NCBI GenBank assembly: GCA_001802645.1
Contig: MGZJ01000040.1
Span: 1-64,000 of the forward strand
Direction of reading: 5' to 3'
DNA from: Geobacteraceae bacterium GWC2_53_11
Lineage (GTDB): Bacteria; Desulfobacterota; Desulfuromonadia; Geobacterales; Pseudopelobacteraceae
Length of the DNA: 64,000 nucleotides
Positions 36,157 through 54,340 of this stretch are shown here, piece after piece. The first letter of the stretch is position 1. Every line of letters starts with the position of its first letter. The notes below the pieces were generated by a model. The model had not been told where the DNA came from, made no database searches, and saw only the letters and a list, made by a program, of their open reading frames with translations. Position numbers and translations under genes: made by a program.

Positions 36157-36166
36157 AATAGAGTCC

Positions 36167-36544
36167 TTACCCAAGTGTTCGTACCGTAATTATCCCCAAC
36201 CAGGTAAAAAGAAGACAGACCGCAACACTTGCCAAGATGTTGGCAAAGGCCACGACAAACCGGCCATCTTCAAGGAGCGTGAACGTTTCGTAACTAAACG
36301 TAGAAAATGTAGTCAGGCCACCAAGAAACCCCACCGTCAATCCAAGGCGAATAGTATCCGGGATGACTGTACTGCGCAAGCCAAGCTCCATTACCAAACC
36401 GATCAGGTAGGCGCCTATGATGTTGACCACGAAGGTTCCGTACGGGAACGCACGTCCCAACAGGCTGTAGACCCACCCCGACAAGTAATATCGTGTAAGG
36501 CCGCCACCGGCACAGAACAGGGCAATGGTAGCTGCGGTCTTCAT
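36167..36544 (-). CDS. crcB: fluoride exporter CrcB/Fluc
   Basis: A 125-residue protein with four transmembrane helices. It carries the family motifs GTFVVNIIGAYLIG and GFLGGLTTFSTFSYE, which include the pore Asn and the Phe/Thr/Ser filter. Fluc channels work as dual-topology homodimers that let fluoride leave the cytoplasm. AGGAGA precedes the ATG at 36544. The pair crcB-DUF190 lies inside the secretion locus, opposite to its main direction and between the lipoprotein and second pseudopilin genes. The usual fluoride riboswitch was not found in the short leader. Confidence 0.94.
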   Translation of the reverse strand: MKTAATIALFCAGGGLTRYYLSGWVYSLLGRAFPYGTFVVNIIGAYLIGLVMELGLRSTVIPDTIRLGLTVGFLGGLTTFSTFSYETFTLLEDGRFVVAFANILASVAVCLLFTWLGIITVRTLG

Positions 36545-36578
36545 CGTAACTATTCTCCTGCAATCATTAAATAAAAAA

Positions 36579-36611
36579 ATACCCTGCCTCTTTATACAAG
36601 AGACAGGGTAT
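36579..36611 (-). terminator. rho-independent terminator of the second pseudopilin gene
   Basis: 14-bp arms (ataccctgcctctt and aagagacagggtat) pair with one G-T wobble. On the minus strand the stem is followed by a run of seven T residues. It ends the pseudopilin transcript 23 bp after its stop and 35 bp before crcB. Confidence 0.9.
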
Positions 36612-36633
36612 ATGCGCAAAGTTTTATACGTAA

Positions 36634-37383: not shown

Positions 37384-38124
37384 TTAACCGTAAAAAAGAG
37401 GGAACCTTTTAATATTATTCACATGTAGCACGTATTTAAAAATGGTAGCCAAAACACCGACACCATACCGGATACTTGGCCATAAACTGATCGATGATGC
37501 TTCCGGGAAATACTTTGTCGGGCAACTGATTTCTCCAATACGAAAACCGAAGAAAATTGTTTGAGCTAACATTTCATTATCAAATACAAAATTATCCGAA
37601 TTGGATTCAAGAGGAAGTTTTTCAAGAACCTGACGGCTGAAGGCCCGATAACCGGTGTGATATTCTGAGAGCTTGACTCCGAGAATTACGTTCTCAAAGG
37701 CGGTCAGTATCCTGTTGGACACATATTTATAGTACGGCATCCCGCCCTTCAAAGCCCCGCCCCCCAGAATACGTGATCCTAATACAACATCATAGTGACC
37801 TGAGATGATCATGGACGCCATGGCGGTGACAAGGCGGGGTGAGTACTGATAATCAGGATGGACCATAACGACTATATCTGCACCGAGCTCCAATGCAGCA
37901 CGATAGCAGGTTTTCTGATTAGCGCCATACCCACCGTTGACCGGATGCACAATTGTCCTGATACCAAGCTCGGCAGCCACCTGGGCAGTCCTGTCGCTGG
38001 AGGCATCGTCTACCAGTACGACGTCGTCAACATACTCATGCGGAAGGTCTGAAAAAGTCTGTCGCAATGTTTTTTCGGCATTATAGGCAGGCATGACAAC
38101 AACAAGTTTAAGTCCTGATATCAT
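37384..38124 (-). CDS. glycosyltransferase family 2 (polyprenyl-phosphate sugar synthase-like)
   Basis: A 246-residue GT-A enzyme. [15 protein letters not shown] and [12 protein letters not shown] bind the donor, and [13 protein letters not shown] holds the metal-binding D-x-D-like site. The C-terminal ECGKL-like pattern [17 protein letters not shown] is typical of enzymes that load a sugar on polyprenyl phosphate. No C-terminal membrane pair is present. The ATG at 38124 has a GGGG-rich ribosome site; a longer frame would overlap the YedE-like gene. It is the last gene of the long minus-strand run from 50.4 kb, and its link to the others is unclear. Confidence 0.87.
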
Positions 38125-38140
38125 GTCGCCCCTCTGTCTC

Positions 38141-39211
38141 TCATTCAGCACGTTCTCGGAAAAGTAGGCTCCCGGCTGCAACAAGTGCAAATCCTATAAG
38201 AATCGAAATTTTCCCGTACGTTGAGACGCCGGATGCCGTCGCGGCAATGCCCCACGACTGGGCAAGTGCCCCGCCAATAAACATGCCGACCACAACCATC
38301 CCGGCGTCCGCATCACCCTCTCCTGCCTTGATAAGTTGCCGGAACGGACATCCGCCGATCAATACCGATATCCAGCCGACCAATCCCATACCCAGAAAGC
38401 TCCAAAGAAAATCTCCGTGTGCTCCCGGCTGCCCGTACAGTCCAAGATTGAATCGTCCTGAAGCCACGTTTGCGACCAATGCCACAGCTACGAAAATGAA
38501 CAGTCCCCATACTGCAGGAACTCGCAACCCCATCAGCATAAAATTCCGAATGCTGCCGGTAATACAGAAACGGCTCCGCTGTGCTACAACGCCAAGAATG
38601 AGTCCCGACGACAATGCCAGCTGCCAAGGGGCAAACTGAGTGCCGCCTCCCTGGGAGGAAAAGAGCAGAAAGCCCGGCCTGACAAGGAAAAATACCAACA
38701 GAAGCAGGAACATCCCGGGAATCATCAGACCGCCATGTCCCTTGCCGTGACTTTGCGGCACAAACTCCACGCCATGCGACAGACTTTTCAGCCCGATCCA
38801 CACACCGGCAACCAGGCCTATGACACCTGCAACGGCGGTAAGATCCCCTGCAGTAAGCCGCAACAGAAGCTTGATCGGGCAGCCGATAAAAACGGCGCAG
38901 CCGAAAATCATGAAAACACCGAGAAAGAGCCGGGCTAGCGGGGCACTGCCGCCGCGAGAACTAAAATCGCGAAAGATAAGAGCACTCACTACGGAACCAA
39001 GTACAAAGCCGAGCAGCTCCGGACGGAGGTACTGCATGCGTTGATTATCGTGCAATCCAAGTGCACCGGCACTGTTCTCAATGAAACAGGAAACACAAAT
39101 ACCGGAGTTTTCCGGATTGCCCCACACGGAGAGCATGACGCCAAGGCCACCGAGCAGCAGTCCTGACAGCGCGACCAACCAGAATTCACGATTACGCATC
39201 ATGTTATTCAC
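38141..39211 (-). CDS. yedE: YedE/YeeE-family sulfur or selenium transport membrane protein
   Basis: A 356-residue polytopic membrane protein with about nine helices, arranged as two related halves. The conserved cysteine motifs [16 protein letters not shown] and [16 protein letters not shown] are the family signature, with a third Cys in [11 protein letters not shown]. YeeE/TsuA members import thiosulfate through these cysteines. A YedE-related branch occurs with selenium-metabolism genes. Which ion is carried here is open. It overlaps the upstream TPR gene by 8 bp and lies in the extended GeoRSP gene run. Confidence 0.88.
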
Positions 39212-39746
39212 ACCCTCCGGCCAGACGGCTTTTGAGGTAATTGATCTTCTGGCGGGAAGCGGCCAGCGTGCGGTTGTCAGGATTAACCGAGGCCCTTTGA
39301 GTAATATTTTTCATCCCGTCGGACACCAGTCGCTGGATCTCAACCCGCCGCGACAAGGGACTCTTGGCGTCTACATAATCGCCATTCAGCTTTACCCCTT
39401 CGACAAAGGAAGATACAGCTTCGTCAAAGGCCCCCATACTGAGGAGTATTTCCCCCTGAAGAATATGACCGTGTCCTTCAGCAGGATATTTCCGGATCAA
39501 TTCGTCGAGCTTCAGAAGAGCCGTCTGATTATTTCCTTCTTTACGAAGGTTCTCAACCGGAGCGTAGAGTGTGGCAATCAGTTCGACCCGGGTACGGTAT
39601 GCCATCTCCCGTTCCAGAGCCTTACCCGGTCCGCTGGATCGCTTCTCGTTTCCCGCACCTGTAGTAGCGTACAGAAGTACCGCCAGCGACACAATGACGA
39701 TCGCCAGAAAGATCCAACACAATTTGTCGAAGACATCTCTGAACAT
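39204..39746 (-). CDS. membrane-anchored TPR protein
   Basis: A 180-residue protein with one N-terminal transmembrane helix (about 10-28) and then helical repeats. At least one clear TPR is seen (GHGHILQGEILLSMGAFDEAVSSFVEGVKL), preceded by another (LYAPVENLRKEGNNQTALLKLDELIRKYP). It should face the periplasm and act as an adaptor. It has a 12-bp gap to the PhnD-like gene upstream and an 8-bp overlap with the YedE-like gene, so it belongs to the same transcript. No specific family was recognised. Confidence 0.75.
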   Translation of the reverse strand: MFRDVFDKLCWIFLAIVIVSLAVLLYATTGAGNEKRSSGPGKALEREMAYRTRVELIATLYAPVENLRKEGNNQTALLKLDELIRKYPAEGHGHILQGEILLSMGAFDEAVSSFVEGVKLNGDYVDAKSPLSRRVEIQRLVSDGMKNITQRASVNPDNRTLAASRQKINYLKSRLAGGCE

Positions 39747-39757
39747 GATTACCTTTG

Positions 39758-40657
39758 TTAATACTTCTGAAACGGTGCCACATTCACCCGTTTTGCCATT
39801 TCACGGATAGGGTCATAATCGGAATCCAGGAGTTCTTCATATCCATCGATCCACGCCGCTTTCATAACCTTAAGCTGCTCACCGTCAACTTCCGCAGTAT
39901 CAGTCGGCTTAAGCGACATAAGCGCTTCCTTGACTTTCTTGACCAGAGCCGGATCGGCATCCTTGGCCACCCCAAAGGTACAGTACGGAATTGGCTTGCT
40001 CTGGGCAAGGATAACAATATCATCAGCCGCAATCTTGCCTTCCCGGGTCATGTTTTCAATATCCATAGCCGGCGCAGCAGCAACATCGTACATTCCGTAC
40101 AGGACTCCGTAGATCAGCTTTTCATGTTTGTAGGAACCGGGTGGAATGGTGTAATGACCGAGGTCATTTTCAGGGTTGATACCGGCAGCAAGCATCATGT
40201 CATATTCCGCAAGATAGCCGGTTGGCGCAAGCATAGGTCCGAATGCCATCCGCTTGCCGCGAATGTCAGCAAGCTTATTTATACCGCTCCCCTTACGGGC
40301 AATGATGGTACCGGCGGAACGCGATCCAAGCTTTCCGCGTTTTTCGGACGCAAGCAGTTGAACACCCTCATTCTCGTGCAGCACAATATAAATAAGCGAG
40401 TTCGTGTGAGTGAATTGAAACTCACCGGCTTTAAAACGCTTCTCAAAATCGTGGGTGTCAACGGGTACCATTACGAAATCAACGCCGACCTTGTCAGACA
40501 GGTACTTGGTGAGGGGGAGGAACCGTTGCGTGGTTTCCTGTTCGCTGTTGCACAACATATAGCCGATTTTAACAACCTGGCGTTTACCTTCCGTCTTGCA
40601 TCCGGCAATCATAACGAGTGCGGTAAGTGCTATACATATCCGTAGTAATCGATTCAT
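39758..40657 (-). CDS. PhnD-like periplasmic substrate-binding lipoprotein
   Basis: A 299-residue lipoprotein with lipobox LVMIAGC (Cys at 20). The body follows the phosphate/phosphonate-binding (PhnD) fold pattern: IGYMLCNSEQETTQRFLPLTKYLSDKVG, VPVDTHDFEKRFKAGEFQFTHTN, DIRGKRMAFGPMLAPTGYL. Members of this fold also serve as sensors for other oxyanions. No ABC permease or ATPase is adjacent, so it may feed the YedE-like or DUF318-like transporters or act as a sensor. The start at 40657 fits the lipoprotein signal; the longer frame is a shadow over the FmdE gene. Confidence 0.83.
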   Translation of the reverse strand: MNRLLRICIALTALVMIAGCKTEGKRQVVKIGYMLCNSEQETTQRFLPLTKYLSDKVGVDFVMVPVDTHDFEKRFKAGEFQFTHTNSLIYIVLHENEGVQLLASEKRGKLGSRSAGTIIARKGSGINKLADIRGKRMAFGPMLAPTGYLAEYDMMLAAGINPENDLGHYTIPPGSYKHEKLIYGVLYGMYDVAAAPAMDIENMTREGKIAADDIVILAQSKPIPYCTFGVAKDADPALVKKVKEALMSLKPTDTAEVDGEQLKVMKAAWIDGYEELLDSDYDPIREMAKRVNVAPFQKY

Positions 40658-40692
40658 CGGCTGTCCGTTTCCTTTTGATTGGAATGAAAAGT

Positions 40693-41217
40693 TCAGTTTA
40701 CTGCAAGTTCTTTCGCACATGGGATGCAAACAAGGCCGTTTGTTGTCTCCCGAACGCGAGTATCCATGACTGATTCGCCACATCCGACACACACAACGGA
40801 ATTCCTGACCCGTGCCGTTTGCAGTTCTTCGTAGGGAATCCGGGTAACTGACAGAATTGCATCTTCCTGTTCCGCCATAATGCGCGAGGCGAAAGCCGGC
40901 CGGTCACTGCGGAGTTCCGCCGGAACCCCTTTGCCATGAAAAACGACTCGCACGCCTTGCTGCCGAACTCGGGAAAAAAGACTATAGGCATGTTTTCCGT
41001 AATCACGAAAAACAAGGTTCCCCTTACCAAAGGTGCAGCCGCTGACGCACTGCAAGGCATCTACTCCGCACGCATCGCTTTCGACAACAGCAAAAAGCTC
41101 TTCATCATCAGACCTGATCGCGCCAAGTGCATCCATGGCCGCGCTGGCAAGGCGAAATCCGATTGCCAGACCGGGACAGGAATGCCCGTGAAATTTTATG
41201 ATATCAGCGTATTCCAT
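40693..41217 (-). CDS. fmdE: FmdE family protein with C-terminal zinc ribbon
   Basis: A 174-residue cytoplasmic protein. The FmdE core has the metal-site motif FHGHSCPGLAIGFRLA and DACGVDALQCVSGCTFGKGN. The C-terminus has a four-Cys ribbon (VCVGCGE .. LVCIPCAKEL). FmdE is named for a gene next to formylmethanofuran dehydrogenase in methanogens. In bacteria without that pathway it is found with molybdate/tungstate and other metal-cofactor genes, and its role is not settled. It lies between the SPASM-only and PhnD-like genes of the GeoRSP run. Confidence 0.9.
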   Translation of the reverse strand: MEYADIIKFHGHSCPGLAIGFRLASAAMDALGAIRSDDEELFAVVESDACGVDALQCVSGCTFGKGNLVFRDYGKHAYSLFSRVRQQGVRVVFHGKGVPAELRSDRPAFASRIMAEQEDAILSVTRIPYEELQTARVRNSVVCVGCGESVMDTRVRETTNGLVCIPCAKELAVN

Positions 41218-41243
41218 TACAGGTTCCTTTTCATCCGGCTAGG

Positions 41244-42107
41244 TTACCGGCAGGCATCATCAACGTCCTCATACGAGCCGTATTTAACATATGATCTACC
41301 GCGGCATCCGCCACGGCAGACGGCTACTTCGTCGCAATTGTCACAGGATGCAGGATACCGTACGATCTTGCTGCGCAGTACCTTTTTCACAGGAGACAAT
41401 ATAATGTTTTTCAGCGAAGTTGCGCCGATTTCTCCGAGGCGGACGGGGAATGTCGGACAAGGGTAGACTCCACCATCAGGTGAAATGGCAATCATGGTAT
41501 TGGCGGCCTGACAGCCGCCCTGCGGAAAGGGGATACCCGGATTGAAGGCCCGCCAGAGAAACGGGTCATGGATGGTAAGACGGAAATCACTGACTCCTCC
41601 CACGGCAACAAGCGCGTGTTCAAGGATTCCCTGATTTTCCCTGTTCAGCAGAAACGGCTCTTCGCCATGATACAAGCGCTGCATGGGCAGCACCAGACGC
41701 TTTATGCCCCGCTCCCGGCAGAGGGAAACGACCTCCGGCAAATCACGCCAGTTAGTAGTGTTCACATAAAATGCAACGCCCAACTCTGATATCTGCGAAA
41801 AATCCCGAAGAGAATCCAACGTGTCACAGGCCCCCAACAGTTCCTTGACACCAAGGTCGGCACGTGACGTTTCCGCCAATGATGACAGGCACGCATTCGA
41901 CAAGGTCAGCGACACGGCAACCGACGACCTTTTGAACCGCTCCAGAATGGCACATACGCCTTCATTCAGAACGGAAGAAGGGTCGTATAGCTGGAGTATG
42001 AGCGGCCGGCATTCGAGAATTTCGTCACAGATTCGTAACAGTGAATCATCAGACGGCGCACAGGGTGCAAGATCCCAATAGACCGTAATCGGCAGGGCCA
42101 GTTCCAT
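41244..42107 (-). CDS. SPASM-domain protein lacking the radical SAM cluster motif (GeoRSP type)
   Basis: A 287-residue protein with a TIM-barrel-like N-terminal part but no CxxxCxxC, so it cannot bind the usual SAM [4Fe-4S] cluster. The C-terminal SPASM-type cysteines are intact: GGCQ, GGVYPCPTFP, CDNCDEVAVCRGGCRG and a last DDACR. These should hold auxiliary Fe-S clusters. It follows the full radical SAM/SPASM gene by 58 bp and resembles the entry I recall as GeoRSP system SPASM domain protein. It is probably a partner subunit of that enzyme. Confidence 0.85.
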   Translation of the reverse strand: MELALPITVYWDLAPCAPSDDSLLRICDEILECRPLILQLYDPSSVLNEGVCAILERFKRSSVAVSLTLSNACLSSLAETSRADLGVKELLGACDTLDSLRDFSQISELGVAFYVNTTNWRDLPEVVSLCRERGIKRLVLPMQRLYHGEEPFLLNRENQGILEHALVAVGGVSDFRLTIHDPFLWRAFNPGIPFPQGGCQAANTMIAISPDGGVYPCPTFPVRLGEIGATSLKNIILSPVKKVLRSKIVRYPASCDNCDEVAVCRGGCRGRSYVKYGSYEDVDDACR

Positions 42108-42165
42108 TCAGCAATTCCTTAATAAGACGACTTTTCTATGAAACAGACACAACTCTACGACATGA

Positions 42166-43179
42166 TCACTTCGCAGGAGCATCACTTCCCCAGCAATGCG
42201 GGTCAGGACTGTTCATATCTCCGGTAAGCGCCAGTGCACGTGCGGTACACCCGCCCAGGCAGTCTTCGTATTTGCTGCAGCCGCTGCATTTGCCAGTCGG
42301 CTGTTTGTTGCGCATCTTGTCCAGAACAACAGAATCTTTCCAGACCTGCTGCAGATCATCACGAACGATATTTCCGATAACGATCGGGATAAATCCGCAT
42401 GGCGTCATATCACCGTTCGACTTGATGTTAAGCGACAACTTGCCGCAGACGCTCCCTTTGACAAGACTTCCGGCATCGCGGGCATCAAGAAGGGCAATAA
42501 TAGGGTCATCAAGCGAAATATCGAGATTTTTTACCGTACGTTTGGCGGCAATGGCATCGCGATAAAACACTTTCCATTCTTCAGGTGTCAAATCGAGTTC
42601 ATCCTTGTTCGACATGCCAAGCCCGGAACATTTAAAGTTATGGAAATTGAGCTGGCCAACCTCATGCTCCAGCGCCATGGCCACCAGTTCATCAATAGTT
42701 GAACAGTTGATGCGGCAGATTACTGTAGAGATTGATGTCGTAATCCCCACCGCCTTCAAATGTTTCAGAGCCGCAAGTGCCCGTGCATGGCTGCCGGCAA
42801 CACCGCGAAATTTGTCATGTACTTCGGGTAGATGGCTATCAATACTGATGCCGACCTTGGTAAACCCGGCATTTTTGAGTGCGACCGCCTTGTCGTAATC
42901 CAGCAGCCAGCCATTGCTGTTCATGGAAACCCGCAAACCAAGTCCACTTGAAAACGCCGCAATATCAAGAAGATCCGGATGAAGCAACGGTTCGCCGCCG
43001 CCAAAATTAACGGAAAACACACCCGCTTTTACCACTTTTTCAATACAGGAATAGAGCACATCACGCGAAATTTCATCGTGAGTATCCTCCCTGCTGTAGC
43101 AGTGGCTGCACGCAAAATTGCAGCTGTTATTGATCGCCCAGTTGATGGTGAGAGGTGCTTTGAGCTGCAGGTTACTCAT
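42166..43179 (-). CDS. radical SAM/SPASM peptide-modifying enzyme (GeoRSP type)
   Basis: A 337-residue enzyme. The radical SAM cysteines are C20, C24 and C27 (SCNFACSHC), followed by the GGEP motif (NFGGGEPLLHP). The C-terminal SPASM region has CGKLSLNIKSNGDMTPCGFIP and CSGCSKYEDCLGGCTARAL with a final PHC. This architecture is that of peptide-modifying maturases such as PqqE and the sactipeptide enzymes. The ATG at 43179 has AAAGGGG upstream and overlaps the PqqD-like gene by 8 bp. Together with the PqqD-like and SPASM-only genes it matches the GeoRSP set. The substrate is unknown. Confidence 0.93.
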   Translation of the reverse strand: MSNLQLKAPLTINWAINNSCNFACSHCYSREDTHDEISRDVLYSCIEKVVKAGVFSVNFGGGEPLLHPDLLDIAAFSSGLGLRVSMNSNGWLLDYDKAVALKNAGFTKVGISIDSHLPEVHDKFRGVAGSHARALAALKHLKAVGITTSISTVICRINCSTIDELVAMALEHEVGQLNFHNFKCSGLGMSNKDELDLTPEEWKVFYRDAIAAKRTVKNLDISLDDPIIALLDARDAGSLVKGSVCGKLSLNIKSNGDMTPCGFIPIVIGNIVRDDLQQVWKDSVVLDKMRNKQPTGKCSGCSKYEDCLGGCTARALALTGDMNSPDPHCWGSDAPAK

Positions 43180-43456
43180 ACCGTATAAACCCCTTTTGAA
43201 ACAGGCTGTTGAGGAAGTCCTGAATATCACTCCGCAGGACATCTTCATCGACTTCGAATTCAGACATCAGGGTAGTTACAATCTCATCCACCGTCTGGCC
43301 ATCACACATTTCCCAGAGTTCTATGCCGAACTCGTTCAGGGAGAGCATCGAACCGCCCGAAAAGAGGATAGCTGCTACCGCCTCTTCCTGAGAAACATCA
43401 CTGTCATCAGACTCCCGGCGCCAGAGGACATCTGGGTTGCGAAAAACTTTAGACAT
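43172..43456 (-). CDS. PqqD-like peptide chaperone (RiPP recognition element)
   Basis: A 94-residue protein with the PqqD winged-helix pattern: a beta region (AVAAILFSGGSMLSLNEFGIELWEMCDG), then QTVDEIVTTLMSEFEVDEDVLRSDIQDFLNSL. PqqD domains bind precursor peptides and hand them to the radical SAM enzyme. It overlaps that enzyme's gene by 8 bp and follows the cupin gene by 5 bp. No short precursor peptide gene is seen next to it. Confidence 0.9.
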   Translation of the reverse strand: MSKVFRNPDVLWRRESDDSDVSQEEAVAAILFSGGSMLSLNEFGIELWEMCDGQTVDEIVTTLMSEFEVDEDVLRSDIQDFLNSLFQKGFIRYE

Positions 43457-43461
43457 GGTAT

Positions 43462-43782
43462 CTAGTCACCTTTCGCCGTAATGGAAGCAATGACGAGGTT
43501 TTCTGAAGATGCATTACGAATGCCGTGGTCCTCTAAAGCAGGCACGACAACAATCTGGCCAACGCTGATTTTCTGGGAGTCTTTGCCGGAGAGCAGTTCG
43601 CCTTCACCCTCGATGACCGTCCAGATATGGCTGCCATGGTGGGTATGGGTAACAACGTCCTGTCCCGGCTTCAGGCATAACATGCTGATGCGGTTGTGAT
43701 CGTCAGTAAAGATTGTTTCCTGATAGCGTTTTGCATCATCAAATTTCTTCAGTTTCTGCACATCAATAATTTGCGATTTCAT
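43462..43782 (-). CDS. small cupin-domain protein
   Basis: A 106-residue single cupin. The first motif is HTHHGSHIWTVIEGEGELL and the second VVVPALEDHGIRNAS, giving the two His and Glu expected for a metal site. Such proteins can be metal-dependent enzymes, metal sensors or small-molecule binders. The position directly before the PqqD and radical SAM genes suggests a part in the same modification or metal-handling pathway. Function is not assignable from sequence. Confidence 0.88.
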   Translation of the reverse strand: MKSQIIDVQKLKKFDDAKRYQETIFTDDHNRISMLCLKPGQDVVTHTHHGSHIWTVIEGEGELLSGKDSQKISVGQIVVVPALEDHGIRNASSENLVIASITAKGD

Positions 43783-43833
43783 TGTTACTCCCCTTGTTGA
43801 TTTGATGGTTCGTACACTGCATTGTACTGCCGG

Positions 43834-45747
43834 TCACGCCTTGTGAACAATCTTAAGAAACCTGCCAAGCAATTCTGACGCTGATGAAAACAGTTGCGAT
43901 GTGATACCGACTGAAATACGAGGTACGTTTTCAGAACTCCCCGCAAACAGGACGCCATAACGGGACGACAACAGATTAACCGACGCATCGTTACGCAGAA
44001 CGGTCTGTCCGTTATCCGTCGAGATCAGCATACCGTTTCCGCGTTCATTAAACCGGGATACCAGTTCCAACTCGCTAGCATTCAGCTGGACCTTACCACC
44101 TGATTCGGGAAAAAACAGCCATAGCTGCCCTACATCAGCCAGCATTCTGTCTGTAAGCTGCGCTGTTTTGGCGCGGTCCATGAGGGTCACGGCAAAACGG
44201 GACTTGCGCAAGACTTCTGCAACCCCATCGGTAAATCCAACCGTACTATTGTCGTTTGCAACAGAATAAATAAGGATTTTATTGCCGACCGGAGAGCTGC
44301 TGTTCTGTTCAATCCAGGTTGCTGCATTTGCGACATAGCGCTGGTCATTTTCAATGCCGGTTGCGGCAGCCGTAAACCGGTTAAATCCGGCATCAAAGAC
44401 AATGCTGCCCTGGCCCGCCAGATCATTGGCATAGGTGGCGATGACATTTTTCCCCACCGGATCAAGAGCTATCCGGACGTTAGTGCCTTCTTTCCGGATA
44501 ACGGAAGAATGCCCCCCCGCCAGTGACGAAACATTCCTGAACAGCTGGTTACCCGTGTCAACACCGGGCACGAATACCAACCACTGGAATGCAGAAGCAA
44601 TTATTATCGTGCCGCCCAGACATACGAACATATACAACACAAAAACCCGCTTCTTGAAAATCGTCCAGAACAGAACCATGGTCGGTATGGCCGTTACCGG
44701 TCCGCCAATCATGAAAGCAAGCGCCGCGCCCCCGTCAAGCGTACCGTGCAGGGAACTCTTGATGTGAGAAAGAATGCTCGAAGCGCTGAGCTGATGGAGA
44801 AACATCGGTACAGAAGCCAAAGTAATCCAGACAATATTAAGCGGGTCCTGGCGGCCGAAAAACTGGAACATCCAGTCACTCGGCATATAGCGCTCAACAA
44901 TGGCACCGATAAAAACCCCTACGAGAATATACTTCCCTACCACCCATGACATTTCCGCTGTTTTAGCCAAAAAGATAAGAAACTTGCTGTTTGTCCGTAT
45001 TGCGACACGGTTACCAAACTTTTCCCTGCAATTGCAGCGCAAATGTTCGATAGGATAATCTTCATCATGAAAATCACCGGGAACGACAGCACCTTCTATG
45101 AACAATCCTCCCTTATCAAACCCTCTTTTACACAGAAAATGGGTGACACCACCGGCAAAAAAGCCCATGGCAAGTGCCGATATGGTTCGGATAACCGTCC
45201 ATTCCGGGCCCAAATCGTTCAAAGTAATCAGATAGGTAGATGGACTGAGCAGTGCCGATGTCACCATCAATGACATGACGGGCGCGAGCGGCAAACCGGC
45301 AAACAGCAGGCTCACTGCAGTGGTAATGGTTCCGCAGGCGCAGAGCGGTGTAATTATGCCCACTAATGAGGCGACAACCACGCTCATGGCGCCGTATTTG
45401 CGTAAGGACGTCTGGAGCTTGACTGCAATTTTATAGGTACGCAGATATCCGGCCAGAATAATGCCGACAAGGAAATACGGAACGACATCCCGCAGTTCGG
45501 AAATAACTCCGTGTGCGTTAAAAAGCAGATCCCAAATTTCATACCCGACGAGCATAAGAAGGGGTGCTGTCGAAGAGGATCCGTCGCCGGACGGGTTGCT
45601 CAGACCATGCCCCCATACGTGCCAAACAATCAGACAGAGGCAGGCGGCAATCATGATCAGCAGGGTACGATTGGCTTTTCTGGCATGGCCTCCATGCAAT
45701 TCACAATCATTCTTGCGTTTTGAGAATATTATGTCACGAAACCCCAT
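43834..45747 (-). CDS. DUF318/YraQ-type permease with large C-terminal soluble domain
   Basis: A 637-residue membrane protein. About eight helices in residues 25-440 form the permease, with the conserved PLCACGTITTAVSLLFAGLPLAPVM region near residue 130 and a second half repeating the pattern (GGPVTAIPTMVLFW). A hydrophilic Cys-containing loop (LRCNCREKFG) connects the halves. The last about 200 residues form a soluble domain (SIVFDAGFNRFTAAATGIEN .. GNGMLISTDNGQTVL), reminiscent of the GATase-like DUF4350 fold. Related permeases (ArsP, SO_0444) export metalloids or organic arsenicals; the substrate here is open. The start at 45747 has AGGAG upstream. Confidence 0.82.
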   Translation of the reverse strand: MGFRDIIFSKRKNDCELHGGHARKANRTLLIMIAACLCLIVWHVWGHGLSNPSGDGSSSTAPLLMLVGYEIWDLLFNAHGVISELRDVVPYFLVGIILAGYLRTYKIAVKLQTSLRKYGAMSVVVASLVGIITPLCACGTITTAVSLLFAGLPLAPVMSLMVTSALLSPSTYLITLNDLGPEWTVIRTISALAMGFFAGGVTHFLCKRGFDKGGLFIEGAVVPGDFHDEDYPIEHLRCNCREKFGNRVAIRTNSKFLIFLAKTAEMSWVVGKYILVGVFIGAIVERYMPSDWMFQFFGRQDPLNIVWITLASVPMFLHQLSASSILSHIKSSLHGTLDGGAALAFMIGGPVTAIPTMVLFWTIFKKRVFVLYMFVCLGGTIIIASAFQWLVFVPGVDTGNQLFRNVSSLAGGHSSVIRKEGTNVRIALDPVGKNVIATYANDLAGQGSIVFDAGFNRFTAAATGIENDQRYVANAATWIEQNSSSPVGNKILIYSVANDNSTVGFTDGVAEVLRKSRFAVTLMDRAKTAQLTDRMLADVGQLWLFFPESGGKVQLNASELELVSRFNERGNGMLISTDNGQTVLRNDASVNLLSSRYGVLFAGSSENVPRISVGITSQLFSSASELLGRFLKIVHKA

Positions 45748-46660
45748 GCAATCTCCTGAATGTCGCCATGAAGGCACCAATTACAACTATAACCATCCCC
45801 AAAAACACCAGCCAGCGCCCGGGATCGCGTACTATTTGAATTCCGGCATATTGAGTCCCCGCGGGGTCAACTGTAAGCTGGGTATTATAAAAATAGAATC
45901 CATGCCATTGTAACGGACCGTTCACTTCTGCAGTTCCTTCCGTAACCGCTCCCGCAGCATCCTTTAGGACCAGGTCAACCCACTGTCTTTTAATCTGGGG
46001 ATTCACATACGCAACCAGCTTGAACGAGTAAGGAAAACCGGCGGGAAGGTCGTTTGCACCGGACAGAGTATTGTACGTGCCGATCAATTTGTCTTTTTCA
46101 AAAACAGAAAGCTTCAGATTTTCTGATTTATTTTCTGCCAGACCGACATCCACCCTGTATTCGTGCAAATCAAAGCTCTGCCCTGTTTTCAGCTCGACCA
46201 GCTTTTCTTTATTCTGCCCCTTAAGGACGCCGATCTTCACGGGCATCGGGTAAAATTCCAGGTTTATCTTCTTGAGAGACAAATTCATACCGAGAGGGGC
46301 GTCCAATTTCGTATCCCAGCGATAGAACTGATCAACCGTGGTCCCTTCATACATGTTGACGGTTGCGACAAACCCGAACGTAGCCAGAACGCATCCCAAC
46401 AGTGTTACAATCACCCCCACGTGCAGTACCAGCACAGGTCTGGATATTGATGCGAACCTCCGGTAGGTACAGAGGAGCAGATTTACCCCAAAGAGACCAA
46501 GCAACAAACGGAACGGGGGGCTGGAATAGAACGTGCGGGCTTCTGAAAGTGTCCCGGGGATGGCAGCAAGCGAAATCACCAGAAAAAGTGCAACAGCCAA
46601 TTCAGTTGACGCAAGAAATTTTAAACCCTTCTTCATCTTCTCAACAAATATCAAAGGCAC
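45734..46660 (-). CDS. ResB-like cytochrome c biogenesis protein
   Basis: A 308-residue membrane protein. Three helices in the first 105 residues (AVALFLVISLAAIPGTL; FRLLLGLFGVNLLLC; VLVLHVGVIVTLLGCVLA) precede a periplasmic beta-rich domain ending in WHGFYFYNTQLTVDP, and a last helix (WLVFLGMVIVVIGAFMA). This matches ResB/Ccs1, which with ResC/CcsA transports and attaches heme. It is shorter than usual ResB and no ResC is next to it, so a different, perhaps metal- or sulfur-related, role is possible. It overlaps the permease gene by 14 bp. The GTG start used is uncertain; a Met eight codons in is an alternative. Confidence 0.82.
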   Translation of the reverse strand: MPLIFVEKMKKGLKFLASTELAVALFLVISLAAIPGTLSEARTFYSSPPFRLLLGLFGVNLLLCTYRRFASISRPVLVLHVGVIVTLLGCVLATFGFVATVNMYEGTTVDQFYRWDTKLDAPLGMNLSLKKINLEFYPMPVKIGVLKGQNKEKLVELKTGQSFDLHEYRVDVGLAENKSENLKLSVFEKDKLIGTYNTLSGANDLPAGFPYSFKLVAYVNPQIKRQWVDLVLKDAAGAVTEGTAEVNGPLQWHGFYFYNTQLTVDPAGTQYAGIQIVRDPGRWLVFLGMVIVVIGAFMATFRRLHGVS

Positions 46661-46667
46661 CTTCCTG

Positions 46668-47219
46668 CTAAATCAGTTTCTTGCTCTTCAGAAAATCTTT
46701 CGCGACCTTTTTGGCTTTATCATCCGACTCAACAGACTTCAGCAATTTCGCATAGGTATCGTTCGAGAGAACTCCCGCCAGCTTATTAAGCAGTTTGGGC
46801 AGTGCCGGATAATTTGACAGGGTATCTGCCGTCAATACCGGCGCATACAGAGGCGCAGCGCCAAAGGTGTTCAGCCAGGTAAGGTTAAAGTTTTTGCGAT
46901 ATTCGCTTTTGATTGAATCAACGCCGAGCGTACCGGTATTTTTGGCTTTCCCCAGTTTTTCCTGGGCTCGATCGGTATTTTCCATGAGAATGTTGACTTT
47001 CCCCTGTTTTACCGCTTCGTACAGTGACCTGGAGTCTTTATAAACATCAATCTTCACACTCGAACCGGTCCGTTCGGAAATCATCAGGGAAGCCATTTCG
47101 GCCATCAGTTTTTCATTTGAACTCGATATTCCCACATGAATTGTCTTCCCAACACACGCCACGGACATATGAGCCGCCATTAGCACTACTGCCGCAACCA
47201 AGCAGATTATTCTCTTCAT
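46668..47219 (-). CDS. exported OpuAC-like substrate-binding protein (short)
   Basis: A 183-residue periplasmic protein. A signal peptide (about 1-25) is followed by HVGISSSNEKLMAEMASLMI and VDVYKDS-like segments (VKIDVYKDSRSLYEAVKQG), as in glycine betaine-type binding proteins. At 183 residues it is shorter than a complete OpuAC (about 250-300), so it may be a single-lobe or diverged form. No ABC transporter is adjacent. A helical Lys-rich C-terminus (SDDKAKKVAKDFLKSKKLI) is present. It precedes the ResB-like gene by 7 bp. It may act as a soluble carrier for the cluster's substrate. Confidence 0.72.
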   Translation of the reverse strand: MKRIICLVAAVVLMAAHMSVACVGKTIHVGISSSNEKLMAEMASLMISERTGSSVKIDVYKDSRSLYEAVKQGKVNILMENTDRAQEKLGKAKNTGTLGVDSIKSEYRKNFNLTWLNTFGAAPLYAPVLTADTLSNYPALPKLLNKLAGVLSNDTYAKLLKSVESDDKAKKVAKDFLKSKKLI

Positions 47220-47277
47220 GAATTACCTCGCAAAACCAGGGGGTTCAATTACATTGCCGACTATTTCAGGCAACATT

Positions 47278-47973
47278 TTATTGTACTGCTAAATTTATAT
47301 CCATGGCAATATCTATTTTCCCGCATACAATCTCTATCAGCCTGCCGGATCCTTCCTGAAATTTGATCGGAAATTGTCGCGATGCTCCGACATAATAGGT
47401 TACATCTGAAGCGACATACACTTCGAATCGGCCATCATTTCCCGTCCACGCGGAAACAAAATCAGGCAATTCCGTGATGTCTTTCGACCTATTGGCAAAG
47501 ACAAGCGAGTTTAAAACAGGCACACCCTCGGCATCAAGCACCCGTCCGGTCAGACGCACCGCTTCCGTGGCACCTGCCCGTTTTTTCTGACCGATTTCAC
47601 GTATATCTGCGACAGCAAAGTCAGCTTCAACCGTTTGCCCAGTCATATCAACTTCAAACGGTTCCCCGGAATGCCTGTCCCCCGGCAATAGCGGGCCGTA
47701 TTTTCCGTCCACTTTATAGCGTGCAACCACCCAGAATTTCCCCGGTGGCAATTGCACCTGCACCTGTCCGGCACGATTTGACAATGAGGAGATAAAATCA
47801 GCCGGTCTCCTCACAACCGGACTGTCGTAAAGAAACAGCTTGGCACCCTCGAGGGGACGGCCCTCAATATCAGTCACCTTGGCTTTCAGAAGATGAGTCT
47901 CGGAAGCGACAGAGGAGAATGCCGCCAGCAGGCATACCAGTACCAACATCATTTGTAAACGTAACCGTTTCAT
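47278..47973 (-). CDS. exported carboxypeptidase-regulatory-like (beta-sandwich) protein
   Basis: A 231-residue protein with a signal peptide (about 1-24). Two CarboxypepD_reg-type beta-sandwich modules follow: LKAKVTDIEGRPLEGAKLFLYD (about 30-115) and LTGRVLDAEGVPVLNSLVFAN (about 140-225), each ending in a FWVVARYK / TYYVGASR strand. Such domains bind or scaffold at the cell surface. Its start overlaps the NosD-like gene's stop by 4 bp. A paralogue is on the plus strand at 52.15 kb with the same two-module plan. Confidence 0.8.
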   Translation of the reverse strand: MKRLRLQMMLVLVCLLAAFSSVASETHLLKAKVTDIEGRPLEGAKLFLYDSPVVRRPADFISSLSNRAGQVQVQLPPGKFWVVARYKVDGKYGPLLPGDRHSGEPFEVDMTGQTVEADFAVADIREIGQKKRAGATEAVRLTGRVLDAEGVPVLNSLVFANRSKDITELPDFVSAWTGNDGRFEVYVASDVTYYVGASRQFPIKFQEGSGRLIEIVCGKIDIAMDINLAVQ

Positions 47974-50444
47974 TTCAACACACTCTTGGCTGGTGCATCA
48001 AGATAAGGCTCAAACAAAACTCTGCCGATCCCCGGCTCATATTTTTCATCAAAAATCGCGCTGGAAGGATCACTCCCGCCCCACCAGTTTCCACGGGCAT
48101 TAACATCTTCATTATTAAAATCACCCACACGAATACCATAACTGCTGTTTCCAACTATATTGTTGCCGTTGACAACAAGGCCGCCGCCCTTTTCTCTGAC
48201 AAAGATACCGACCTCATTTTTCTGTATGGTAGTACCTCTTATGACTGCATTGCCAAGATACGCCCTGATACCAATGGAATTGTTTTCGAACGTCGAATTC
48301 CGGATTTCAGCAGGACCGCTCCTGAACCGCATCCCTCCATAATTGTTGGCAAAATAACTATCGGAAACGACCAGATTGGTAAAATGACTGTGCAGCCCCC
48401 AGGTAGCGTATTCAAAGATACAATTGGATACAATGCTGCCGGTAGCATATTCAAGCTGTACTTCATTCCAATCGCCTGCAGCTTTCCTGCGGTCCGATGT
48501 AAAACTGATTTTCGCGGTTTCCTCCCCCTTGGCAATCAGGCGGCCTTTGACCAGCATCCCGATCCCCTCAGAAAATTCAACAGTTGTACCGGGAGCTACC
48601 GACAACTCCACACCAGAATAAACCGTCACAGGTTGCGTTATGGCAATAACACCGCGCCAAAGCGCGTCAACCGCGACACTCTGTAACGGCCACACGAATC
48701 GAAACGGGCGTTCACTGGCCCTATCCTGATTAACCCTGCCCCTCGCTGGATCTGACCGTTTGTCAAAGACGACTTTGGCCGGGGCATCCCCCCCCCACCA
48801 GTTTTCATAGGCCATAACGTCCTGCGGGCCTTCAAGATCAATTGCATACAGTCGGTTTTTTATGAAATTGTTTCCGGATATTTCCCCGTTAAACGACTGT
48901 ACGCCGATACCCCGCTCTCCATTATCGGAAATCTGGTTCCCTCTGACAGTGGCACGGGATTCCTGAATATTGAGGCCATTAAATCCGTTCAAAGCAATAT
49001 TGTTGCCAACTACTTCCACATTATCGGCATTTTTCAGAAAGATGCCGACTTCCTGATTATATGAAATATTGTTCCGGCTATAGTCACCGTAAAACATATC
49101 AGCAACCATCATGCCGAAGCGATTGCCATCAATTGAGTTTTCCTGCAGCGATGAAATGCCTTCGCGTATTCTCAGGCCTTCCTTGCCGTTTGCCGTTATT
49201 CGGTTCCCCCGCGCCGTCAGGTTCGTTCTGAAAAAATTAGCTCCGAGATAGTTTGCGGCAATAACATTATCTGTCAGGGTGACATCAGAATCCCTCCCCT
49301 GCACGCCACTCTTATTGCCATAAATATAATTGTTCTTGAGAAGTACCAGTGATTCCTGAAACTGGATGGCGCGATAATTATTGGTCACCTGGGAATTAAA
49401 CAGCCCGACATGGGAGAAATGGAAATGCAGCCCCCGATAGGCGTGCTCGATTCGACAGTATTCAATAAGATTCTGGGTTCCCGAACTGTTCATGATATTG
49501 ATAGAATCCCAATCGCCAGTCCTTTTCACGTTCTCGGCAGATCTGAAAATTATGGGGTTCTCGGGCGTACCCTTGGCAATCAGCCTCCCCTGGATCAAAA
49601 GGCCGTTTTCGCCGATTCCGGTCCCGGTCGTGTCCTTCTTTACAAACTCCACGATCGTTCCGGGCAGTATGAAAAGCCTGCTCCCTTCAGGCACCCGAAT
49701 AACCCCGGCAACTTCGATTCGACCCTGCCATATTGTGTCGCCACGGAAAACTTCGTCCTGATAACGCCTGCTAACCGGAGAATCAGCGGAGGTCGCAAGA
49801 GTGTTTGGCGGAGCAAATTCTTTCGACGTTGCAGAATAGCTGTCTTTTTTCCGGTTTCCGGTAACGAGCGAGCTTTTCGATTCCAGTCGTGCGCCCTGAA
49901 AGGTAAAAACTCCGTACTCGTTTTCCGTAATACGAGATCCTTCGATCCGCGCATTAGCCGCACTTCCGTGAGCAACGACTCCATATCTGTTCCGGCTGAG
50001 AAGGGAACCCGTCATGTTTAGAGAACCGTCCAGGACCGTAAAAGCTGCCTCGGAATCATGGACCTGAACAGCAGAGACTTCAGCAGTCCCTTGGTCAATA
50101 GCAATTCCTGCCCAGCTTGCATTCCTTTTCTCTTCTCCGGAAAAGGTAACCGGCGCTTTGCCGGTGCCTTCAACTACTAATTTTCCGCGAATCGTTATTT
50201 CGGTCAGAGGAGAAATGAACTCGGGATCTGTTTTGGTACTTTCCGCTGCGGCAATTCTGATGATTGTTCCCGCCCTGACCGTCAGGGTAATCCCCCGGGG
50301 AACCAGAACGTCCTCAGCAACCCTTACTTCGCCCGTCCATACGGTATCTTTGGTGAGAGTGACGGCGTGGGAGATTCCGGGAGACACCACAAAAAACAGC
50401 AGAAACAGGAAAGCAACGAAATGTATGCGGAAGGAAATTGTCAT
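47970..50444 (-). CDS. exported right-handed beta-helix protein (NosD-like)
   Basis: An 824-residue periplasmic or outer-surface protein with a signal peptide (about 1-28). The body consists of parallel beta-helix repeats rich in Asn and Gly (NRFGMMVADM, NNISYNQEVGIFLKNADN). Three modules begin with the same kind of capping strand: DTVWTGEVRVAEDVLVPRG, DTIWQGRIEVAGVIRVPEG and DALWRGVIAITQPVTVYSG. Two modules close with NWWGG. NosD is the periplasmic copper-related factor of N2O reductase maturation, with the same fold; no nosZ is here. It heads the long minus-strand run. The promoter-like site gives it almost no leader. Confidence 0.85.
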   Translation of the reverse strand: MTISFRIHFVAFLFLLFFVVSPGISHAVTLTKDTVWTGEVRVAEDVLVPRGITLTVRAGTIIRIAAAESTKTDPEFISPLTEITIRGKLVVEGTGKAPVTFSGEEKRNASWAGIAIDQGTAEVSAVQVHDSEAAFTVLDGSLNMTGSLLSRNRYGVVAHGSAANARIEGSRITENEYGVFTFQGARLESKSSLVTGNRKKDSYSATSKEFAPPNTLATSADSPVSRRYQDEVFRGDTIWQGRIEVAGVIRVPEGSRLFILPGTIVEFVKKDTTGTGIGENGLLIQGRLIAKGTPENPIIFRSAENVKRTGDWDSINIMNSSGTQNLIEYCRIEHAYRGLHFHFSHVGLFNSQVTNNYRAIQFQESLVLLKNNYIYGNKSGVQGRDSDVTLTDNVIAANYLGANFFRTNLTARGNRITANGKEGLRIREGISSLQENSIDGNRFGMMVADMFYGDYSRNNISYNQEVGIFLKNADNVEVVGNNIALNGFNGLNIQESRATVRGNQISDNGERGIGVQSFNGEISGNNFIKNRLYAIDLEGPQDVMAYENWWGGDAPAKVVFDKRSDPARGRVNQDRASERPFRFVWPLQSVAVDALWRGVIAITQPVTVYSGVELSVAPGTTVEFSEGIGMLVKGRLIAKGEETAKISFTSDRRKAAGDWNEVQLEYATGSIVSNCIFEYATWGLHSHFTNLVVSDSYFANNYGGMRFRSGPAEIRNSTFENNSIGIRAYLGNAVIRGTTIQKNEVGIFVREKGGGLVVNGNNIVGNSSYGIRVGDFNNEDVNARGNWWGGSDPSSAIFDEKYEPGIGRVLFEPYLDAPAKSVLK

Positions 50445-50483: not shown

Positions 50484-50557
50484 GAGGCTCTGACCAGATT
50501 GACTCGTTTAATTTCTGATGTTATTGTGATGCTATCTGCGAAGTACTGGTGCCATCA

Positions 50558-51394
50558 ATGATTCGTCTTGTTTATTACGCTCTGATTCTCTGTTGCACAC
50601 ATCTGCCGACACACGCCGCTGCTTCGAGCACGTTACAGACCATTCCGGCGGGCTGTTTTCTCATGGGCAACACTTTTGAGGACGCCTACCATATAGAGAG
50701 ACCGGCGCATGAAGTATGTATCAGCAGTTTCTCCATGTCACCTTTTCCGGTAACACGGGGCGAGTTTGGCATGTTTGTGGCTGAAACTGGCTACCGTACC
50801 GATGCAGAGAAAGATGATGGCTGCAATATTTTTGACGGCAATAACTGGAAAAAGGATCCTGCTGCCACTTGGCGTTCCCCCGGTTTCCTTCAAGAGGCCG
50901 ACCATCCGGTGGTATGCGTAAGCTGGAATGACGCAGGTGCCTATGCCAATTGGTTGACCCGCAAAAACAACCGGATCTACCGTCTCCCGACAGAAGCTGA
51001 ATGGGAATACGCTGCCCGAAGCGGGGGAAAAAACGAGCGCTTTGCCGGAGGAGACGACATAGACAAGGTGGCGTGGTATGCCGCAAATTCGGAAAACCGC
51101 ACCCATTCAGTAGGTAAAAAGCAGGCAAACGGTCTGGGGTTGTATGACATGAGCGGCAACGTCTGGCAATGGTCCGGGGATTGGTACAACAATCGCTATT
51201 ACCGCATGAGTCCCCGCAATGACCCGTCAGGCCCGGCATCTGGCACAAAGCGCATCTTCAGGGGGGGAAGCTGGTTCTATGACCAGAGGGGCGCACGCAC
51301 CACGTACCGTGATTTTGCCACCCCTGGATTCAGCAGCAGTTATCTGGGGTTCCGGCTTGTTTCCACGATGCCGGATTCCAGCCCCCCTCAATGA
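50558..51394 (+). CDS. exported SUMF1/FGE-fold protein without the catalytic cysteines
   Basis: A 278-residue protein with a signal peptide (about 1-24). The full SUMF1 (formylglycine-generating-enzyme-like) fold follows: IPAGCFLMGN, PVVCVSWNDAGAYANWL, RLPTEAEWEYAARSGG, GLGLYDMSGNVWQW, RGGSWFYDQRG and LGFRLVS. The segment after RGGSW, where FGE has its Cys-x4-Cys copper site, has no cysteine, so formylglycine formation is unlikely. Start 50558 (ATG) is used; a GTG three codons earlier is possible. It heads a plus-strand run of four exported proteins. Confidence 0.88.
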   Translation: MIRLVYYALILCCTHLPTHAAASSTLQTIPAGCFLMGNTFEDAYHIERPAHEVCISSFSMSPFPVTRGEFGMFVAETGYRTDAEKDDGCNIFDGNNWKKDPAATWRSPGFLQEADHPVVCVSWNDAGAYANWLTRKNNRIYRLPTEAEWEYAARSGGKNERFAGGDDIDKVAWYAANSENRTHSVGKKQANGLGLYDMSGNVWQWSGDWYNNRYYRMSPRNDPSGPASGTKRIFRGGSWFYDQRGARTTYRDFATPGFSSSYLGFRLVSTMPDSSPPQ

Positions 51395-51460
51395 TATGAC
51401 ATCCGCTCCTCCTCTTCGGCAACAACCTCTATTCTACGTTAACAGTTCAAAGGGTGCCCC

Positions 51461-52123
51461 GTGACGCGAATTTGCATAGTGCTTCTCTCCATTACATTGT
51501 TTGTTCTAGATGCCAGAACCGCTTCCACAGCACCACCGGAATCAAATAATCCGTTCTATTCCTCCGTACCGTCAGCGTATATGGACGATCCACGCCGCAA
51601 CGAATGGCAACAACCGGACAAGGTTATTGACTACCTATTCATTAAACCGGGAGAAACCATAGCTGACATCGGTGCCGGCACCGGTTTTTTCTCAACCCGC
51701 TTCGCTCGAAAAGTCGGAAAAACGGGGCATGTCTATAGTGCCGATGTTGACGAGACCATGGTGCGGTTTATTGAGAAAAGAGCCCAAAAGGAAGGTCTGG
51801 GAAATATCCGGGCGATTCATGCACACCTGAATGATCCGTTGATACCTCGCTCATCTGCGGACGTTGTTTTTATCTGCGATACGTATCTCTTCATAGACAA
51901 CCGGGTACAGTATCTGGCACGATTACGTGACAGCCTCAAAATTAACGGACGGCTCGCGATCATTTCCTTCAACGCTTCTGCGGAAATCCCTGGCGCCCCC
52001 CCACAGCAGCGTATGATACCCAAACAGACTGTCATCACGGAAGCCATTGCTGCCGGCTATGCACCGGAGGCTGATTACCTTTTCTTACCCTTTCAGGATT
52101 TTCTGGTTTTCAGAAAGCGGTAA
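51461..52123 (+). CDS. SAM-type methyltransferase with an N-terminal signal sequence
   Basis: A 220-residue protein. The N-terminus (TRICIVLLSITLFVLDARTAST) looks like a signal peptide. The rest is a class I methyltransferase: DYLFIKPGETIADIGAGTGFFS (motif I), VYSADVDETMVRFI (motif II), SADVVFICDTYLFI. A methyltransferase in the periplasm would lack SAM, so either the segment is a membrane anchor facing inward, or the fold serves another purpose. Similar signal-bearing proteins are annotated in other delta-proteobacteria. The GTG start follows AAAGGG. It lies between the SUMF1-like and beta-sandwich genes. Confidence 0.82.
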   Translation: MTRICIVLLSITLFVLDARTASTAPPESNNPFYSSVPSAYMDDPRRNEWQQPDKVIDYLFIKPGETIADIGAGTGFFSTRFARKVGKTGHVYSADVDETMVRFIEKRAQKEGLGNIRAIHAHLNDPLIPRSSADVVFICDTYLFIDNRVQYLARLRDSLKINGRLAIISFNASAEIPGAPPQQRMIPKQTVITEAIAAGYAPEADYLFLPFQDFLVFRKR

Positions 52124-52149
52124 GGTAATAACACCTCAAGGAGATCACC

Positions 52150-53013: not shown

Positions 53014-53036
53014 ACACCCTTCACTTACTCACCACA

Positions 53037-54305: not shown

Positions 54306-54340
54306 CCCGGTTCTAGACTGCCCGCGTTTTCCTCAGTACG

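Follow-up and report, generated by a model that had tools for sequence, protein, structure and literature searches.

A GeoRSP radical SAM trio within a conserved gene block of a proposed envelope system centred on a cysteine-tailed TPR protein and a YedE-family transporter

The GeoRSP system, to our knowledge, has so far amounted to three family names only, namely a PqqD-family peptide chaperone, a radical S-adenosylmethionine (SAM)/SPASM protein and a SPASM-only protein. In Geobacteraceae bacterium GWC2_53_11, the genes of this trio lie within a cluster of 14 minus-strand open reading frames (ORFs) at positions 37384-50444 of the 64-kb stretch analysed here (contig MGZJ01000040.1, positions 1 to 64,000, hereafter the window), with short gaps or overlaps between neighbours (Table 1). 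The three genes are adjacent and their products all score above the curated NCBIfam cut-offs, in agreement with the initial annotation, which had recognised the trio as GeoRSP. The same annotation listed 13 genes, all of which are present on one strand; the interval nevertheless encloses 14 ORFs, the CarboxypepD_reg-like protein at 47278-47973 having been left out. Across related loci, the steadiest pair is a TPR protein ending in a conserved cysteine-bearing peptide (hereafter the tail) and the YedE-family transporter, usually together with PhnD-like, NosD-like and OpuAC-like proteins, and the trio is a separable module, present in most but not all lineages.

No gap of at least 60 bases separates the operon ORFs, with ORFs below 70 amino acids (aa), small overlapping ORFs and unlinked precursors outside this search. 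The permease ORF was probably annotated with too early a start, and the true starts of the radical SAM, PhnD-like and YedE genes are probably near 43176, near 40657 and at the ATG near 39202, respectively. The adjacent GT2 glycosyltransferase gene was found at one locus in each of the two locus sets described below, the same genome both times, and is thus placed outside the conserved unit. No ABC ATPase that would form an ABC importer with the binding proteins occurs among the 14 ORFs, to which this search was limited. The window holds no tRNA and gave no Rfam match at the gathering score, while promoter-like sites (26, against 17.1 in shuffled sequences) and terminator-like sites (17, against 16.3) were not decisive.

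Table 1. Genes of the cluster, with coordinates in the window, basis of the assignment and number of the 53 tallied loci that hold a homologue.
Feature	Coordinates	Strand	Basis	Loci (of 53)
NosD-like right-handed beta-helix protein, apparent signal peptide, 824 aa	47970..50444	-	Pfam NosD/Beta_helix	45
CarboxypepD_reg-like protein (CpdR), apparent signal peptide	47278..47973	-	Pfam	28
Short OpuAC-like protein	46668..47219	-	Pfam OpuAC (short)	47
ResB-like membrane protein, conserved C64 and H80	45734..46660	-	Pfam ResB	29
DUF318/ArsP_1 permease with C-terminal soluble alpha/beta domain	43834..45780	-	Pfam ArsP_1 (=DUF318)	22
Cupin, conserved His46, 48, 52, 86	43462..43782	-	Pfam Cupin_2	19
GeoRSP PqqD-family peptide chaperone	43172..43456	-	TIGR04302, 106.6 bits, cut-off 100	51
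GeoRSP radical SAM/SPASM protein	42166..43248	-	TIGR04303, 613 bits, cut-off 400	52
GeoRSP SPASM-only protein	41244..42107	-	TIGR04304, 326 bits, cut-off 300	53
FmdE-domain protein, accessory, lineage-specific	40693..41217	-	Pfam FmdE	10
PhnD-like binding protein, apparent lipoprotein	39758..40792	-	Pfam Phosphonate-bd	40
TPR protein, one N-terminal membrane-type helix, conserved C-terminal 11-residue peptide	39204..39746	-	Weak TPR matches	36
YedE-family transporter	38141..39211	-	TIGR04112, 394 bits, cut-off 200	36
GT2 glycosyltransferase, neighbouring gene outside the conserved unit	37384..38190	-		1 (and 1 of 74)

The distribution of the cluster was assessed by searching the SPASM-only model in 395 genomes at phylum level (four above the cut-off, two just below) and in 277 genomes of the window's class (25 above the cut-off, 69 with an E-value no worse than 1e-25). 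Of the 60 loci retrieved, the 53 that carried the TPR gene or the GeoRSP radical SAM gene were tallied, the other seven being left out. A genome scan with the PhnD alignment yielded a second set, drawn from the best 80 of 99 loci, of which 74 were tallied and six without TPR or radical SAM were left out. The two sets partly overlap, sharing identical sequences, so their counts are not independent, and the tallies are based on single-sequence queries. Gene order recurs across genera, families and a second phylum, and the arrangement is therefore beyond chance. The block is conserved in Geobacter relatives and in Nitrospirota, and rearranged in Desulfuromonadales-type genomes. Eight Nitrospirota loci (L175, L176, L178, L179, L180, L184, L185 and L186) share with the Geobacter relatives a twelve-gene block comprising NosD, CpdR, OpuAC-like, ResB, PhnD, TPR, YedE, permease, cupin, PqqD, radical SAM and SPASM genes, as expected from the earlier proposal of a conserved unit. 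FmdE, which that proposal had counted as part of the system, is absent from the Nitrospirota block and proved to be a local addition (Table 1).

Four variants were distinguished. Variant A, to which the window belongs, has the DUF318 permease and the cupin, which in variant B are replaced by a NicO/RcnA-like permease, a second TPR gene and a second NosD gene. Variant C, of Desulfuromonadales type, comprises a polyferredoxin, an OpuAC-like protein, two NosD, PhnD, TPR, YedE and the PqqD, radical SAM and SPASM trio, with a gene resembling the cysteine desulfurases/selenocysteine lyases of TIGR01977. Variant D (L066, L069 and L071) comprises PhnD, a short tail protein, YedE, a permease, radical SAM and SPASM; these loci continue with an anti-sigma-like gene, accompanied in L069 by an extracytoplasmic function (ECF) sigma factor (Pfam), and adjoin a large protein with many CxxCH motifs, as judged by inspection. 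A cassette of OpuAC-like, second TPR-like and PhnD genes without the trio, sometimes with a NicO permease, was also seen in L177, L188, L191, L195 and L268.

The C-terminal sequence of full-length TPR homologues is YLxxRxxG(G/S)Cx-COOH, with the cysteine in penultimate position in all but one (L279, where two residues follow it). The tail is carried by 35 of 37 aligned rows, with slight variation at the x and S residues, and the remaining two rows are cut short. Pairwise identity among 35 sequences is 94% over the last 11 residues, 50% over residues 36-169 and 33% over the first 35; these rows were chosen as ending in GGCE, so that the last four residues reflect the selection rule, and the two truncated rows were left out. 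Only D126, A176, G177 and C179 are invariant across a 42-row alignment, and nine near-invariant columns lie at the C-terminus. The tail takes the form YYLQR(R/K)IAGSC(G/S), or close variants, in Nitrospirota, forms such as YYMLRKIAGSCG or YLQRRVAGGCE in loci of the Desulfobulbaceae class, and (Y/F)LFRR(M/I)YGGCG in variant D. The AlphaFold model of the window protein (predicted local distance difference test, pLDDT, 90.6) comprises a membrane-type helix at residues 3-29 followed by TPR helices and a last helix (159-175) that bears YLKSRL, with AGGCE modelled as coil. A trivial explanation, that the tail is kept merely because its codons hold the ribosome site of YedE, was rejected, since the codons vary synonymously (GGC GGC or GGC GGT in several loci, for example) and the gap between the tail gene and the YedE ORF also varies (11 bases in L070, 45 bases in L117).

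The link between the tail and YedE was assessed in 186 class genomes, 68 of which held a YedE match at E 1e-50. Canonical YedE was represented by the ten places with the highest scores (474-491 bits). Among the fetched loci, 126 of the 131 YedE places of the present system, corresponding to 101 of 106 distinct sequences, have the tail TPR gene directly upstream, as against none of the ten canonical ones. The five exceptions are three variant D loci with their own tail protein, L181, which is masked with N, and L198, a true exception. In a tree of 60 of the 141 rows, the canonical genes form one branch with support of 100/100 and the system YedE fall outside it. Members of the canonical branch are found beside SelD or selenocysteine-lyase-like genes, with selD within about 0.6 kb in G485 and G500, and two genomes (G325 and G343) hold both types. 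Among the operon genes of the window there is no SelD, YedF/SirA-like protein or selenocysteine lyase, and selD lies on another contig of the same genome. The hint in the initial annotation of a sulfur- or selenium-type transport is thus favoured in its general sense, but the YedE concerned is not of the branch associated with SelD and selenocysteine lyase. Profiling of selD as an indicator of selenium dependence was abandoned, since the gene is too common to be informative (244 of 277 genomes); in G409, a 99% complete genome with both radical SAM gene and tail, no selD match was obtained.

Within the 277 genomes of the class, the DNA pattern of the GGCE tail was found in 80 and TIGR04303 (E 1e-105) in 82, both together in 76 and neither in 191. 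The six genomes with radical SAM only include two whose tail is encoded by other codons or differs by one substitution (G480, G469), three cut by contig ends (G405, G455, G481) and one that is 52% complete (G589). The four with the tail only include two that match the SPASM model (G411, G474), one with SPASM and a split radical SAM gene (G438) and one that is 78% complete (G542). Such co-occurrence would be expected if the trio were a maturase acting on the tail in the manner of the ribosomally synthesised and post-translationally modified peptides (RiPPs), with PqqD presenting YLxxRxxGGCx and the radical SAM/SPASM pair modifying it at or near the cysteine. The nine near-invariant columns at the end of an otherwise poorly conserved protein are in line with such a role, as is the lack of an operon gap of 60 bases or more for a separate precursor (small overlapping ORFs being outside that search); the candidate modified tail would sit on a 180-aa protein. 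The two genes can be far apart: they are separated by 1.17 Mb in G570, by 77 kb in G541 and by 24 kb in G362, while in G584, G536, G534 and G568 they are on separate contigs with PhnD-TPR-YedE flanked on both sides by other genes (other separate-contig cases, G622, G629, G543 and G586 among them, may be mere assembly breaks). At the unlinked loci inspected, it is PhnD and YedE, and not the trio, that accompany the TPR gene; this gene escaped the script in L206 and L208, where the tail pattern is nevertheless present.

In a second class, the tail occurs without any match to the radical SAM model. Of 12 genomes from the PhnD scan searched with TIGR04303, five gave a match (four Nitrospirota above the cut-off, G666 just below) and seven did not. 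Six of these seven, of Desulfobulbaceae type, hold the TPR protein, their loci showing the tail followed by YedE, with NosD kept; TIGR04302 gave two weak matches in the genomes lacking radical SAM, of 23 and 22 bits, both in one genome. Across 135 genomes of the class of G665 (Desulfobulbaceae), the TPR profile matched 30 and TIGR04303 none, a null that is not proof of absence, from the model that found 82 genomes in the window's class. SPASM and PqqD were found in none of the 26 loci fetched from this class, without a search across the 135 genomes. The tail could be read in 23 of the 30 genomes and was intact in all 23, and in all 20 loci of one set it is followed by YedE. The contrast of 30 against none indicates that the tail is independent of the trio and that the trio is an add-on, and, together with the company of YedE kept by unlinked tail genes, it makes the tail an unlikely substrate of the maturase. 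The single-unit claim of the initial annotation accordingly holds in so far as radical SAM and tail co-occur genome-wide even when unlinked, and fails in that the trio is separable.

The reactive residues compared (TPR C179; YedE C39, C42, C105, C111, C216 and C288; PhnD C81, H223 and C271; OpuAC-like C22) are conserved in at least 93% of trio-bearing rows and in more than 90% of trio-less rows, and none of these motifs disappears along with the trio. When the two groups of loci were compared for residues that might betray the target of the trio (in PhnD, OpuAC-like, TPR, YedE and CpdR, with NosD excluded), the few differences were all conservative. Within the trio itself, CxxxCxxC is found in 52 of 54 radical SAM rows and, near the start, in one of 54 SPASM-only rows, whereas each of the seven SPASM cysteines of the SPASM-only protein is kept in 53 or 54 of 54 rows. 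The PqqE model covers most of a distant relative of this protein, and the SPASM-only protein itself is, by sequence, probably a degenerate radical SAM barrel or partner without CxxxCxxC.

The PhnD-like protein groups by sequence with PtxB, PhnD, HtxB, ArrX and AioX. Its residues C81, H223, E224, K225 and C271 are invariant in 24 aligned rows, and C81, H223 and C271 are kept in more than 90% of 21 trio-less rows. The segments of C81 and C271 align to the first loop and to the P-x-Y-P-W segment of PtxB, which suggests a putative two-cysteine pocket. In L143, L167, L215 and L216, from Geobacter sp. OR-1 and a relative, second copies of PhnD and TPR-YedE stand in an island of metal or metalloid type (ArsR-, DUF318-, CDF-, thioredoxin-, CcdA- and RND-like genes, named by inspection), with the second TPR-YedE pair about 9 kb from the second PhnD in L215 and L216. 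In AioX, arsenite is ligated by cysteine. A system for handling or detoxifying metalloids or heavy metals would agree with the DUF318/ArsP permease, with ArrX and AioX among the solved PhnD relatives and with the island copies (L167 and L216), but no metalloid regulator or reductase occurs among the 14 ORFs, and we consider such a function very unlikely.

The OpuAC-like protein carries a conserved Cys-x-Gly just after the apparent signal peptide, as judged by eye without a predictor. The permease resembles SO_0444/SaoE and falls under both model cut-offs; its C-terminal domain (window 43834-44493), which mostly ends in a conserved LGxxLKxVxKA, has no Pfam match, and its model (pLDDT 78) matched no PDB entry at or below an E-value of 0.001. 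In one Desulfobulbaceae-type locus (L243:16370-16957) a HupE/UreJ nickel-type permease adjoins PhnD and NosD. The NicO and HupE genes beside some loci raise the idea of a nickel cofactor in cable bacteria; according to one study, neither cable bacteria nor reference Desulfobulbales have importers of the HupE type (PMC11247825).

Taken with the frequency of NosD-type beta helices (Table 1), the metal-type permeases that vary by lineage (DUF318, NicO, and HupE/UreJ beside L243), the cupin and FmdE, and the desulfurase and polyferredoxin of variant C could point to an assembly line of Nos type for an extracytoplasmic metal-sulfur site, in which permeases would move metal and YedE sulfur, NosD and the binders would load a client, and the trio would mature a part. 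The NosD-like protein, however, scores 25.1 bits against a TIGR04247 cut-off of 300, no NosF- or NosY-like gene is found among the window operon genes, no constant client gene was found and the permease varies, and this account appears unlikely. A specialised maturation of c-type cytochromes or haem, drawing on ResB, TPR and CcdA-like parts, is most improbable: to the ResB match, the weak resemblance of the TPR protein to NrfG (E 0.005) and the CxxCH-rich proteins adjoining variant D can be opposed the scarcity of ResB matches in the Desulfobulbaceae class (one of 26 loci, against 29 of 53 and 31 of 74 in the two sets, by a single-sequence search that may miss divergent copies), the PDB matches of the TPR model, which are generic TPR proteins, and the lack of a haem lyase in the window set.

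On either side of the cluster lie genes of other kinds. Just downstream, at 35809-36619, are two genes which we take to be DUF190-like and CrcB-like (fluoride exporter type), and the gene clusters of this pair (c16 and c12) recur near the locus in four and five loci of close relatives, respectively. Upstream, at 50549-56061, are two FGE-sulfatase genes (Pfam) and a third recognised by inspection, with a methyltransferase, a further CarboxypepD_reg protein and a beta-lactamase-fold protein; relatives of the FGE and methyltransferase genes also stand near the cluster in L084.

Several known systems resemble parts of this one. All three GeoRSP families are represented in the window, and here the trio is embedded in a larger coinherited envelope set, which in another class exists without radical SAM. 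In YeeE-YeeD (TsuA-TsuB), too, a transporter of the YeeE superfamily, with conserved cysteines, is paired with a protein that has a single conserved one, and YeeE is reported to pass thiosulfate along three cysteines to C17 of YeeD (PMC11073785); the partner in the present system is instead a TPR protein anchored in the membrane and ending in a GGC arm, and not a soluble TusA-type CPxP protein. The seleno-YedE of TIGR04112, tied with TIGR01977 to selenium by comparative genomics (PMC5322559, PMC2276186), shares the cut-off that the window protein passes, but the system YedE is outside the canonical branch and is encoded next to the tail protein and, usually, PhnD. DsrC, of the DsrC/TusE type, offers a parallel to the tail in a flexible C-terminus with a penultimate cysteine, which is reported to become persulfurated (PMC3397948); no sequence relation was seen, and the fold here is TPR. 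The NosDFYL apparatus for nitrous oxide reductase assembly shares the NosD-type beta helix and differs in its partners, the NosD model score being far below its cut-off and NosF and NosY being absent from the window operon. In the literature searched, with subscription papers and preprints outside its scope, no description was found of a system for GeoRSP or for this combination of parts, in keeping with the initial remark that the function is not described. What is new here is the penultimate-cysteine tail on the TPR protein and its placement directly upstream of the system YedE.

The cluster is best read, with a probability of about 0.4, as one envelope system made of a membrane relay core of sulfur/selenium type and a separable maturase module. 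From the YeeE-YeeD cysteine relay, the penultimate cysteine of DsrC and the selenium link of YedE and TIGR01977, we infer that the core is probably such a relay, formed by the PhnD-like binder, YedE and a cysteine arm that replaces a TusA-type partner. In this scheme, the PhnD-like protein would capture a thiophilic ligand of sulfur, selenium or metalloid type in the periplasm, YedE would conduct it across the membrane along its own cysteines, and the C-terminal cysteine arm of the TPR protein would be the next acceptor or donor, at the place that YeeD holds for YeeE. NosD and the OpuAC-like protein, with ResB or polyferredoxin plus a metal-type permease according to lineage, would use or deliver the ligand outside the cytoplasm. 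In lineages that have the trio, PqqD, radical SAM and the SPASM-only protein would modify a peptide or protein of the pathway, the likeliest arrangement being a heterodimer whose substrate is bound to PqqD. The TIGR01977-like gene of variant C supports such a relay.

Several observations weigh against this interpretation. The NosD, DUF318, NicO and HupE components point to metals and ResB to haem, and radical SAM and PqqD play no part in the core relay as drawn, no substrate of the trio having been identified by synteny or differential conservation. The charges flanking the membrane helix of the TPR protein do not settle its topology, the grouping of tail-linked YedE is weakly supported (58/45, with a warning of long branches from the tool), and L198 (G666) combines YedE with a radical SAM protein narrowly short of the cut-off (397.6 bits) but has no adjoining tail gene. 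Transport, sulfur chemistry and the ligand of the relay are themselves inferred. The trio could alternatively arm the penultimate-cysteine tail for sulfur or selenium exchange with YedE, creating a peptide-derived prosthetic arm that feeds a periplasmic metal-sulfur assembly; the tail kept without radical SAM would then be an unmodified or otherwise modified ancestral form, and we hold this to be decidedly unlikely.

Read as a relay core with a separable maturase, the cluster assigns the orphan GeoRSP maturase to a pathway, with a small number of partners and one specific peptide. The cysteine-tailed TPR protein is proposed as a new type of partner for transporters of the YedE/YeeE family, relevant to bacterial sulfur, and perhaps selenium, import. 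The envelope system to which they belong is widespread and apparently undescribed, extending through Geobacter relatives, Desulfuromonadales, Desulfobulbaceae-type bacteria and Nitrospirota.

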